IMG/VR virus record: IMGVR_UViG_3300035698_007241
Location: 1-48,644 of that record
DNA: 48,644 nt
Source of the DNA: a virus
Reading direction: 5' to 3' (one strand)
The position numbers were made by a program, and so were the translations under genes. The notes under the pieces were generated by a model. That model searched no databases. It was not told the DNA's origin and saw only the letters and a program-made list of their open reading frames with translations. This document shows, piece by piece, positions 16,867 to 47,294 of the stretch (position 1 is its first letter; every line of letters starts with the position of its first letter).

Positions 16867-17561
16867 AGAAAATACTATTAATATTATTGATACTTGCTAC
16901 CTCTGTGATGGCATCGGAGAAGCTATATATCAATGAATTGTTTCAGCTCGGTGGAACATTATTTACTCCCGACTCTGTCAAGGTCAGAGTATATAGTGAT
17001 CTTGCTATTGTTGCAGACACCTCAGTGACATATACGCCGAGTGGTGGGCTACTTAGAGACTCTATCGTAGGGGACTTCGCTTCAGCTTATGAGCTACACT
17101 TTGGGGTAATAGTTTACAAGGCATCCTTTTGGGGGACAGCTTCGATGGCTTACTTTGTTCCAATTAGACAAAGCCAATCGTTTATTAATGTAGATCCAGC
17201 TTATTCTGATTCATCCAAAATGATATACGTATGGGGCAGGATTGTTGGACCAGGCAGGAACCCGGGAGATACCATCCGCGGTGTCGAGGATGCTTATATT
17301 TATATTACGCCATCAAAATCCTCAGTGATCGATTCCTTTGGGAATATATACAATATGATACAGCCAATAATTACGAGAACAAATAGTCTCGGTAATTGGG
17401 GCGCCTATGTGCCTATATCACAATTTCTTATACCTGAAACATATTGGACGTTCCGCGGCAAATGGCCGGGTGGAGGTTTTTCCACTGGACCAATTGAGAC
17501 TCCAAATGATACAACCGGTCAGTTGACTAAAGACTCAGATGGAATATGGGCTATTGAATGA
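16863..17561 (+). CDS. Secreted protein of the fibre region, 232 aa
   Basis: The ATG at 16863 follows AAGGAGATACA. Residues 1-17 (MKKILLILLILATSVMA) are a clear signal peptide with cleavage after VMA. The mature protein has an N-terminal beta domain (about residues 18-105), then YVWGRIVGPGRNPGDTIRGV near residue 125, typical of a carboxypeptidase-regulatory or prealbumin-like beta-sandwich in which a variable loop is displayed. There are no obvious catalytic residues. It could be a fibre accessory or an adhesin acting at the cell surface. It overlaps the next gene by 4 bases. Confidence 0.78.
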   Translation: MKKILLILLILATSVMASEKLYINELFQLGGTLFTPDSVKVRVYSDLAIVADTSVTYTPSGGLLRDSIVGDFASAYELHFGVIVYKASFWGTASMAYFVPIRQSQSFINVDPAYSDSSKMIYVWGRIVGPGRNPGDTIRGVEDAYIYITPSKSSVIDSFGNIYNMIQPIITRTNSLGNWGAYVPISQFLIPETYWTFRGKWPGGGFSTGPIETPNDTTGQLTKDSDGIWAIE

Positions 17562-17905
17562 TATTCAAAGACGAAAGACAACGGCCTCTCTACAATGAGA
17601 GGGCTGATGGGACATTGCGCAATGTTCTGCATATACTAGACTACTATTCATTGCTGATTAGTAATAAAGATATAGTTGTCACAGAGTTTTGGCGCGAGGA
17701 AAGAGCCGGCAGACTATCGTTTCATCCAATATTCCAAGCGGCTGACATCCGAACCAAGAGAAGAAGTCAGGAATGGATCAAGAAGATGATTGGTATGCTT
17801 ATCGTCCTGAAGGAGGATGATAGTAGGATACAGTTTGAATATGAAGATGTAGGTGGCAACAATGAACATCTACATATTGAAATTGACACCGGTAATCCGG
17901 TTTAA
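17558..17905 (+). CDS. Short M15-like (D,D-/L,D-peptidase type) endolysin candidate, 115 aa
   Basis: The ATG overlaps the preceding TGA. The motif S54-F-H56 followed by A-A-D63, and the late E103-H104-L-H106, reproduce the SxHxxGxAxD ... HxH zinc site of M15 peptidases, enzymes that cut peptidoglycan stem peptides. The usual Gly of the motif is replaced and the protein is shorter than typical phage M15 endolysins (about 130-200 residues), but all three expected zinc ligands (H56, D63, H106) are present. It lies directly before a two-helix holin-like gene, a classic lysis arrangement. It has no signal peptide, so it would need a holin for export. Confidence 0.62.
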   Translation: MIFKDERQRPLYNERADGTLRNVLHILDYYSLLISNKDIVVTEFWREERAGRLSFHPIFQAADIRTKRRSQEWIKKMIGMLIVLKEDDSRIQFEYEDVGGNNEHLHIEIDTGNPV

Positions 17906-17924
17906 CCCTAACAAAGGAAACATT

Positions 17925-18116
17925 ATGGAAAAGCTATTAGGATGGAGAACATTCGCACTTGCGTCCATTGCCTTTATTTCAACCGTAGTGCTAGTTGCTA
18001 TGGATAAGATTCCACAGGTAATAGATCTAACCACATGGACCACATTTGTTCTAGCAGTTCTTGGAACATACGCCGTGAAATCTATCGGAACCTCTATGGC
18101 GACCAAAGAAAAATAG
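17925..18116 (+). CDS. Holin-like protein with two membrane helices, 63 aa
   Basis: I chose ATG 17925 because AAAGGA lies 6 bases upstream; a longer reading in the same frame starting at 17853 would overlap the peptidase gene and lacks a ribosome site. Two hydrophobic stretches, about residues 8-27 (TFALASIAFISTVVLVAMD) and 36-52 (TWTTFVLAVLGTYAVKS), are linked by a short loop, with charged ends (C-terminal MATKEK). This is the usual shape of small class II holins. Adjacency to the M15-like peptidase supports a lysis role. Confidence 0.72.
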   Translation: MEKLLGWRTFALASIAFISTVVLVAMDKIPQVIDLTTWTTFVLAVLGTYAVKSIGTSMATKEK

Positions 18117-18133
18117 TCAAATACTTCTTGCCT

Positions 18134-18180
18134 TATCATGCCCTGATAGCTATATTCAGGGTGTGATACGAGTCTTTTTC
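18134..18180 (+). terminator. Hairpin with a 13-bp stem after the lysis genes (probable terminator)
   Basis: TATCATGCCCTGA (18134-18146) pairs with TCAGGGTGTGATA (18156-18168) with two G-T wobbles and a 9-base loop. A short T tract (CTTTTTC) starts six bases later, so it is an imperfect intrinsic terminator or a processing hairpin separating the holin-like gene from the beta-barrel gene. Confidence 0.55.
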
Positions 18181-18206
18181 AAACCTTTAACTTCGAGAGG
18201 AGATCC

Positions 18207-45301: not shown

Positions 45302-45312
45302 GGAGGTCGATG

Positions 45313-46137
45313 ATGAGTTTACACAAAGACGCTAAAGATGCTGCACTTATAAAGGGTGTTGCAAATATAATTCTAACTGCTGGTAATAATGCTGCAGGTT
45401 CTGTTGTTATGAATGTTAGATGGATTGGGGACAAACTCGGCACAGCTTCACTAGAGGTTGACGCCGCAACTGGTGATTATGAATTCACTACTGATGGCAC
45501 GACAGCTGATACAACCATTGGCATTCCTACTTTAAACGGAACGATTGATACTTCCAACGCTGCTGGGAATACCTACGGTGAAGTGGTTGACAATATTAAC
45601 GCTTCCACTAATTGGGAGGCTGAACTGGTTGGGGCATTAAGGTCTGACGTTTCAACCAATACCACTCTCACTCTTGCAGAGACAACTAGCGTTAGTGATG
45701 CCGCTGGTGTTGTGACCACATTTGACCCTGTAGTTGAATATGACGGAACTGACTTTCTTGGGATGGCAATAGCCATACATGGTTCCAAGTTCAAGACTGG
45801 TAATACATGGCGTAAAGAACATGATAACGGTGGATTCATCAATGAATTGTTCTACGTTAATTGTGATTTAACTTACGCTTCAGGTGTTGTTAATATTGAT
45901 ATTTTTGAATGTGACGATGTGAACAACACGGAGACTCGTATTGCGAGATTCCCTGCTGCTGCAACGACTGTCACTAAAGAAATCGGCGATGGTAGCTTTC
46001 CTATTATCTCCGCAAAACGTGGTTCCAGACTTGTAGTAAGATCTACTGGTGATGCTGCCTTTACTGGTGCTGCTGGTGCATCTTGGGCAACGGCCACTGG
46101 ACGTTCATACAATCCCGACTTGGTATTGTTTGAATAA
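45313..46137 (+). CDS. Putative head decoration or stabilisation protein, 274 aa
   Basis: I chose ATG 45313 (six bases after AGGAGG at 45301-45306); an adjacent ATG 45310 is also possible, and a longer in-frame start would overlap the capsid gene. The product is almost all beta, with Thr/Ala/Gly-rich strands (GTASLEVDAATGDYEFTTDG) and a C-terminal RSYNPDLVLFE. It lies directly behind the capsid gene and may coat the head. No family is recognised with confidence. Confidence 0.68.
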   Translation: MSLHKDAKDAALIKGVANIILTAGNNAAGSVVMNVRWIGDKLGTASLEVDAATGDYEFTTDGTTADTTIGIPTLNGTIDTSNAAGNTYGEVVDNINASTNWEAELVGALRSDVSTNTTLTLAETTSVSDAAGVVTTFDPVVEYDGTDFLGMAIAIHGSKFKTGNTWRKEHDNGGFINELFYVNCDLTYASGVVNIDIFECDDVNNTETRIARFPAAATTVTKEIGDGSFPIISAKRGSRLVVRSTGDAAFTGAAGASWATATGRSYNPDLVLFE

Positions 46138-46150
46138 TAATTTCTAATCT

Positions 46151-46177
46151 TGAGGGGGCGTAAAAGCCCTCTCATTT
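46151..46177 (+). terminator. Hairpin between capsid genes and adaptor genes (attenuator-like)
   Basis: A 9-bp stem, TGAGGGGGC (46151-46159) with GCCCTCTCA (46166-46174), one wobble, a 6-base loop and only three T residues after. Such a weak terminator would reduce, not stop, transcription after the abundant capsid products. Confidence 0.55.
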
Positions 46178-46191
46178 AAAAAGAGGTATAT

Positions 46192-46629
46192 ATGCCTGTT
46201 GCAAAAACAAAAGTAGAAGAGAAAAAAGAAGAAGTAAAACCTATTGTTGAGCCAAAGGACGAAACAGTTGTGTTCTTTTCCAGTGCTATTGGTGCCGATT
46301 TCACACAGAAGAAAGAACAGAAATTTAGTGATGGTTCTATATTAGAGCCAGCTAAAAGTATTAAATTTGAGGCCAATTGTTACAGAACAGATGACCTAGA
46401 AGAAATAGAATACTTACGTAATAAAATTAAGGCAAAAGACGGATCGGGTGCTTTAGCCGGTCTTGTTGAATGTAAGAATGAAGAACAACTTATGCTTTTA
46501 CGTGCCGCTAGAATATCCAGGCGACAAGGTTTTGGTAATATGACCGTGACAGAGGCTCTTGAGCAGGATCACGATTCAGCTGCTAATATAATTGAAAAGC
46601 ATAGCACGACATTGACCGGTAGAGCATAA
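46192..46629 (+). CDS. Small head-region protein with charged N-terminus, 145 aa
   Basis: The ATG at 46192 follows AAAGAGGTATAT. The first 30 residues are Lys/Glu-rich (TKVEEKKEEVKPIVEPKDE) and probably disordered; the rest is alpha/beta. Position between the decoration-like and adaptor-like genes suggests a head-completion role. No family recognised. Confidence 0.66.
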   Translation: MPVAKTKVEEKKEEVKPIVEPKDETVVFFSSAIGADFTQKKEQKFSDGSILEPAKSIKFEANCYRTDDLEEIEYLRNKIKAKDGSGALAGLVECKNEEQLMLLRAARISRRQGFGNMTVTEALEQDHDSAANIIEKHSTTLTGRA

Positions 46630-47294
46630 TGATAGACAGAGAGTTTATCCTTAACACTGCGAAGCAAAATGCTACGCCGATTGACAAAAAGAAAAACGAA
46701 GATTGGAATAGGAGCTTTGACTTAGCTCTTATCGATCTGTCTGCTAGGTTAGTTGAGAAGGATAGACTCGTCATTCAAAATATTAAGGTGCCTGTCGGGA
46801 CAAGGGATTTGATACTCAAGGGTGTTAATTCTGATATATCTCAGATATATTATCTGTCCTATGGTAGTGGTGATGAGCAAAGTGTCCTTGAGTATGTCGA
46901 TGACAATATATTCATCAAAGATTATAACTCTACCACTGCTGATGCTGGACAACCTTCAAAGTATACCTTTATAGGTCTTGACCAGGGATCTATACAAATA
47001 AGGTTTGATGTTCCAACTGAGACTGCCTCAACTATGGATGTATGGTATTATAAACATATCGACCAGACTTTAATCCGAACCACTAAAGGGCCGGCCTTGG
47101 TTGATATCACAAAGGCATACTTTTATGGTAAGGATACTGACAGGGGTAATAAGGTTTATTGGGCTGGTCTTAATCTTGTAACAGCTATTAGGGCAAATGT
47201 TAAGCCGGTAGCTGACAAGGAATCAAAATTTAGAAGTAGTAGATTTACCCGTAGAGTTGAAAGAATAAGACGAAGTTATAGGGGTCGAAGATGA
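46629..47294 (+). CDS. Head-tail adaptor-like protein, 221 aa
   Basis: The ATG at 46629 overlaps the preceding stop (TAATG). After an N-terminal helical part, the middle shows IQNIKVPVGTRDLILKGVNS and GQPSKYTFIGLDQGSIQIRF, a layout shared with the next gene (G-x-P-x3-Y ... I-x-F) and common in short-tail adaptors that sit under the portal. The C-terminus is Arg-rich (RVERIRRSYRGRR), suited to contact with DNA or portal. It has no signal peptide. Related fold to the next protein is inferred. Confidence 0.65.
   Translation: MIDREFILNTAKQNATPIDKKKNEDWNRSFDLALIDLSARLVEKDRLVIQNIKVPVGTRDLILKGVNSDISQIYYLSYGSGDEQSVLEYVDDNIFIKDYNSTTADAGQPSKYTFIGLDQGSIQIRFDVPTETASTMDVWYYKHIDQTLIRTTKGPALVDITKAYFYGKDTDRGNKVYWAGLNLVTAIRANVKPVADKESKFRSSRFTRRVERIRRSYRGRR

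Follow-up and report, generated by a model that had tools for sequence, protein, structure and literature searches.

The assembly of tailed phages is described in textbooks as a cytoplasmic process, and in the known phages with a T7-type short tail the tails join the heads in the cytoplasm. Such tails contain an adaptor and a nozzle (gp11 and gp12 in T7, gp4 and gp10 in P22), and homologues of both are encoded in the IMG/VR virus record IMGVR_UViG_3300035698_007241, whose 48,644 nucleotides, analysed here as a whole, are called the window; the gene order portal, capsid, adaptor, nozzle is also common to the two. In this work, we show that predicted outer virion proteins of the window, together with two pieces of the core tail, a second head-tail adaptor and the nozzle, carry N-terminal export signals, so that the tail may be built outside the cytoplasm. 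In the open-licence full-text literature we found no description of signal peptides on tail proteins as a feature of assembly; one paper merely counts signal peptides (PMC5723332) and two others do not mention them (PMC8776804, PMC13288928).

Genes of the window are named below by their first coordinate. Their N-termini were rated with a home-made scorer that considers the charge of the n-region, the hydrophobicity of the h-region and the residues at -3 and -1, on which eight export signals of E. coli gave reference values of 4.6-9.2, and residues 2-40 of each were shuffled 500 times as a control. The products of 42435 (9.4; 0/500 shuffles), 16863 (8.1; 0/500), 18207 (8.1; 1/500), 7283 (6.6), 14179 (6.3), 47291 (5.6; 8/500) and 14783 (5.2) have the layout of signals for Sec and signal peptidase I, with n-, h- and c-regions and small residues at -3 and -1, and across the seven the real score was matched by 0-8 of the 500 shuffles. 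A score of at least 5 was reached by 17 of 955 genes (1.8%) in related-type phage loci versus about 9 of 60 in the window (Fisher p ~7e-6). The nozzle scored 3.0, a low value because its end is lipobox-like (FVGC) and not of the AxA kind; its hydrophobicity exceeded that of the shuffles (at most 1/500), and the F at -3 departs from the lipobox consensus [LVI][ASTVI][GAS]C. In 1859 (4.5) a positive n-region is absent and 17/500 shuffles did as well, making the signal doubtful, and the score of 45310 (4.05), reached by 57/500 shuffles, lies within background. The sequence-only reading had listed signals on the second adaptor, the nozzle, 1859, 7283, 14179, 14783, 16863 and 42435; by scorer and shuffles they hold for 47291, 7283, 14179, 14783, 16863 and 42435, the nozzle being weaker and 1859 weak. 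It had seen none on TerS, TerL, portal, scaffold, capsid and first adaptor, and indeed none of these rose above background.

The starts of these genes are also well supported. A Shine-Dalgarno (SD)-like motif stands ahead of 18 of the 21 late genes, and no SD motif precedes the ATGs further inside 47291 and the nozzle gene, from which translation would drop the signals. The ribosome-binding sites of 42435, 16863 and 47291 had all been called strong, which is right for the first two, that of 47291 being only moderate (AGGGG). The N-terminal signals are real. The proteins bearing them may be exported and cleaved, and the predicted mature N-termini, mostly neutral or acidic, favour export.

The second adaptor and the nozzle can be firmly assigned by homology and gene position. 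Against a hidden Markov model (HMM) built without the window, 47291 scored 31.0 bits as an adaptor (next window protein, 4.1), and the nozzle, against a nozzle HMM likewise built without it, 64.7 bits (next window protein, 1.7). With the window included, the adaptor profile (A3) matched tail tubular protein A of PDB 9k09 (1.8e-4) and the nozzle profile (A4) tail tubular protein B of the same entry (1e-6); the nozzle also matched phrog_3287 (6e-9) and phrog_511 (5e-6). The best matches of 47291 were known adaptors and genes immediately 5' of nozzles, and 47291-47977 itself directly precedes the nozzle gene (47974/47980), as expected of an adaptor. AlphaFold2 gave poor models (pLDDT 51 for the adaptor and 44 for the nozzle). 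Homology makes both of them virion proteins, as had been claimed; homology to non-virion proteins, named beforehand as contrary evidence, was not found.

In both proteins the signal appears as an addition. We scored homologues whose 5' ends are complete, 31 of the nozzle and 30 of the adaptor, at every possible start codon (near-duplicates are included, so the independent cases are fewer), and found a credible signal in 0 of the 31 and 0 of the 30; the threshold was reached by three internal starts without ribosome-binding sites, 195-324 nt into the homologue genes, which we judged not credible. A 19-residue signal precedes the core of 47291, unlike the usual start at the first core helix, and none of the 30 homologues has one. 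Residue 12 of the nozzle in the MaAM05 record (locus L041) aligns to residue 30 of the window nozzle, which thus has about 18 extra N-terminal residues. Since the signals stand ahead of conserved cores, we conclude that they were added. The nearest portal, adaptor and nozzle set is that of MaAM05 and of locus L057, where all three align to the window; there, unlike in the window, signals are absent and the adaptor and nozzle cores begin near residue 1.

The 274-kb record entitled Microcystis phage MaAM05 appears to be a bacterial contig carrying a prophage or tail-module island, the host-type genes hppA, proS, lepA, ftsH and kimA surrounding a compact portal-capsid-adaptor-nozzle island (MW495066.1 202787-227530). 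Another phage with a nozzle homologue encodes, 5' of its adaptor and nozzle genes (L063 4178-4543), a small signal-bearing protein, MRRLVVALCLCLLASVASA, which recalls 42435.

The 127 bases at both ends of the record are identical, a direct terminal repeat, and the record reads as a circular genome of 48.5 kb from an uncultured short-tailed phage. Its plus-strand late block runs from 35790 across the contig join to 19938, and the minus-strand early block occupies 20-35 kb. The tail region had been said to wrap across the join, and the nozzle gene does so in frame (47974 or 47980 to 48644, then 128-1862). The late genes considered here are the following:

38161..46629, +, packaging and head genes (TerL 38161, portal 40463, 42947, scaffold-like 43324, capsid 44123, 45310, 46192)
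42435..42956, +, 173-residue protein in the portal/scaffold interval, with the strongest signal peptide of the window
46629..47294, +, first adaptor-like protein, signal-free
47291..47977, +, second head-tail adaptor of the tail tubular protein A family, like T7 gp11 and P22 gp4; N-terminal Sec signal MKIVVLIISFLLMFQLGSA
47974..48644, +, nozzle gene from its GTG start (47974 or 47980) as far as the contig join, N-terminus signal- or lipobox-like MRYLFIIMLLFVGC
128..1862, +, remainder of the nozzle gene; tail tubular protein B family, like T7 gp12 and P22 gp10
1859..2221, +, 120-residue protein, N-terminus weakly signal-like
2233..3858, +, signal-free proteins of 233 and 304 residues (2233, 2944), probable ejection or internal virion proteins
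3868..6987, +, signal-free protein of 1039 residues, probable ejection protein
6989..7279, +, 96-residue protein with an N-terminal membrane anchor (long hydrophobic segment, 12-30)
7283..14179, +, giant fibre-like protein of 2298 residues, signal peptide with predicted cleavage near VYA/S
14179..14802, +, 207-residue signal-peptide protein MRYLLLLLLLLPIVASGQ
14783..16717, +, 644-residue signal-peptide protein VRFILSSILVLLATSVFGQ, beta-helix-like in sequence character
16863..17561, +, 232-residue protein with a strong signal peptide and a strong ribosome-binding site
17558..18116, +, lysis-like pair: 115-residue M15-peptidase-like protein (17558) and two-helix holin-like protein (17853)
18207..18659, +, 150-residue signal-peptide protein, C-terminus resembling an outer-membrane barrel by sequence, last residue F

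Family searches gave no match for 2233 and 2944, whose inner role is read from gene order and composition, nor for 14783 or the lysis-like pair; 3868 and the giant fibre-like protein matched neither a family nor a PDB entry. By eye, the 17558 product has HxxxxxxD and HxH motifs, and neither member of the pair has a cleavable signal. TerL and portal had PHROG matches, with a weak one for the capsid. The first adaptor resembles adaptors weakly (4.1 bits by HMM; hhalign 0.003-0.06) and shares a YRGRR C-terminus with the adaptors of L041 and L042. The product of 42435 is possibly an outer head decoration, and that of 18207 may have a role in receptor masking or exclusion. The 18207 signal protein and the 6989 membrane anchor had been overlooked in the sequence-only reading, as had a small lipoprotein of the early block (23793-24035, minus strand; MKLLPVLLIMFLLMGC, followed by a coiled-coil-like stretch), which is spanin-like. 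Directly 5' of TerL, 37461-38009 (plus strand) encodes an HslV/proteasome-like peptidase (phrog_1040; PF00227, 1e-9). The early genes are overall rich in cysteine (2.7%) and include a similar pair of small, cysteine-rich, zinc-ribbon-like proteins (RVCPNCG...EALxCG; 22767-23024 and 26402-26677, both on the minus strand).

Signals were found on the second adaptor, the nozzle, the giant fibre, 14179, 14783 and 16863, and weakly on 1859; TerS, TerL, portal, scaffold-like protein, capsid, 45310, 46192, first adaptor, 42947, 2233, 2944 and 3868 are signal-free. Set against predicted position outside the head, this amounts to 7 of 7 versus 0 of 12 (Fisher p 2e-5), a value that is only indicative because several of the inner and outer roles are themselves predictions. 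A split into a tail with signals and a head without them, as put forward earlier, is overstated, for 2233, 2944 and 3868 are signal-free in the tail module and 42435 is signal-bearing in the head module. The distribution is better described as a division between parts outside the first adaptor and parts inside it or on its head side.

Virion proteins with such signals are on record in cultured phages of Cellulophaga. In phi19:1, gp101-gp104, recorded as structural by experimental tandem mass spectrometry (MS/MS) proteomics, all bear signals (MKKIFSILILLSCFYINAQ, MKKTIYILSILLLTISGVSAQ, MKQTISIVLFFILSLGLNAQ, MRNIVLILLFFNISFSFG), as do gp91-gp94 of phi10:1, four consecutive virion proteins by MS/MS. 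The head, tube and tape-measure proteins of the two phages are signal-free, and signals looked for in phi19:1 gp85, 87, 88, 90-92, 94 and 96-98 were not found. The relatives of gp103 (phi46:3, phi19:3, Ingeline, phi10:1) match it from residue 1 onwards (38-66% identity), with near-identical signals in phi46:3, phi19:1, Ingeline_1 and phi10:1, and an SA/NA/FG-Q junction is repeated in unrelated Cellulophaga virion proteins. A gp103-like fibre domain has a signal in phi46:3 and none in phi4:1, which infects the same host species (L077 36752-37690; L085 18207-20825). Of the MS/MS virion proteins of phi4:1, one, gp57, begins with a segment resembling a membrane anchor. Export signals in virions are therefore real and recurrent, yet optional. 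The same pattern, proposed as something to seek in related genomes, is absent from the adaptor and nozzle homologues and present in partial form in phi19:1 and phi10:1, in the distal fibre cassette only.

Fibre proteins of Cellulophaga phages have in common a near-identical N-terminal module, made up of the signal and about 40 residues (QTVEGTVGSDG...), which occurs at L077 34513-37690, L080 14001-14912, L079 16001-16954 and L083 12001-12954. Its first 60 residues are also present in pectate lyases of other phages (tblastn), and it is possibly an exported module for attachment to the virion.

We propose that the virion is split between two compartments, its outer tail being exported and joined at lysis, and regard this as having about an even chance of being correct. 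Synthesis of the signal-free parts, namely the head with its packaging enzymes, the first adaptor and the ejection proteins, would take place in the cytoplasm, and there the head would be filled and then closed by the first adaptor. Sec signals would take the second adaptor, the nozzle and the outer fibres out of the cytoplasm; after processing, with lipidation perhaps in the case of the nozzle, these parts would fold and pre-assemble, either in the periplasm or at the cell surface, and wait beyond the inner membrane. They would dock on the filled heads once holin opens that membrane, an opening that the 17558/17853 pair would supply. The proposal is built on the signals, the identity of adaptor and nozzle, the additions ahead of their cores, and the signal-bearing virion proteins of Cellulophaga phages; from these we infer export, cleavage, the place and time of joining, and the inner or outer status of the uncharacterised genes. 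Its most complete form, with the whole outer tail secreted, pre-assembled and joined at holin opening to cytoplasmic heads with their ejection proteins, and a fibres-only variant in some Bacteroidota phages, we hold more tentatively, at somewhat short of even chances. This is possibly a new mode of assembly.

Several observations weigh against assembly in two compartments. The MS/MS virion proteins of phi4:1 and phi14:2, from the same host species, lack Sec-type signals, and therefore the host does not require them. Searches of IMG/VR and GTDB with TerL, portal, capsid, nozzle and recombinase returned only remote homologues, and no close relative of the window was found there or in INPHARED. 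Within the window, several inner and outer roles are predicted, 42435 breaks the rule of head against tail, the nozzle signal is weak under the AxA rule, and the predicted mature N-terminus of 47291 has a charge of +2, unusual for an exported protein. Cysteine is enriched in the window (0.79% vs 0.27%; nozzle p 0.025), and we do not rely on this as a sign of oxidative folding, as it is not repeated in the signal-bearing proteins of Cellulophaga phages.

The main rival explanation is that the hydrophobic N-termini stay unprocessed: assembly would be cytoplasmic, and the N-termini would remain on the virion proteins as arms, either buried or membrane-active, that keep the parts joined or insert into the host membrane at DNA entry. 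Short tails are known to contain membrane-active parts, the nozzle and 1859 have poor signal-peptidase sites, and 47291 is positively charged after its signal; most of the other signals, however, have a charged n-region, an h-region and small residues at -3 and -1, the junction repeated among Cellulophaga virion proteins points to processing, and adaptor and nozzle homologues function without such arms, so that we consider this unlikely. The proteins might instead serve twice, a cytoplasmic share building the virion and an exported share acting at the host surface in receptor block, polysaccharide cutting or phage exclusion. The pectate-lyase-like enzymes of the signal-bearing Cellulophaga cassette and the barrel-like 18207 would suit such a role, but neither nozzle nor adaptor has an obvious surface function, and the SD-led starts yield one form, no SD-led internal signal-free start being seen; a double role thus seems quite unlikely. 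It is very improbable that the signals are unused relics in fibre genes acquired from host surface proteins: hosts are often the source of fibre and lyase genes, but adaptor and nozzle are phage proteins with signal-free homologues, and signals were retained across Cellulophaga phages diverged to 38-66% identity. As for an artefact, the nozzle gene does span the contig join, but wrong start codons and contamination were rejected in view of SD-led starts, in-frame cores, adjoining late genes and a circular record with a direct terminal repeat, and the shuffle and 1.8% background comparisons leave chance, too, with hardly any probability.

If core tail parts do leave the cytoplasm in this way, secretion would be one of the steps of phage maturation and tail joining would be tied to lysis. 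Oxidative folding or lipid anchoring of tail parts would become possible, and the signal-bearing virion proteins recorded in Cellulophaga phages would be accounted for. As to the host, SD motifs precede 0 of 20 starts in Cellulophaga phages versus 18 of 21 in the window, and such strong SD usage argues against Flavobacteria. A TerL match to WOR-3 (L090) was set aside; it is remote, and no other window protein matched at that locus.

Compared with known systems, the window departs from T7-type tails in its signals, since no export signals were found in the about 60 homologues scored. It resembles the cassette of phi19:1, phi10:1, phi46:3 and Ingeline in that Sec signals stand on a succession of distal proteins, which are predicted virion proteins in the window and recorded ones by MS/MS in phi19:1 and phi10:1, although homology between the Cellulophaga fibres and those of the window was not shown. 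Moreover, phi19:1 and phi10:1 encode tape-measure or tail-tube-type proteins and not an adaptor-nozzle tail as in the window. In the Cellulophaga phages the signals are confined to the distal fibre cassette, whereas in the window they are also found on adaptor and nozzle, extending such signals from the fibres to the core of the tail.

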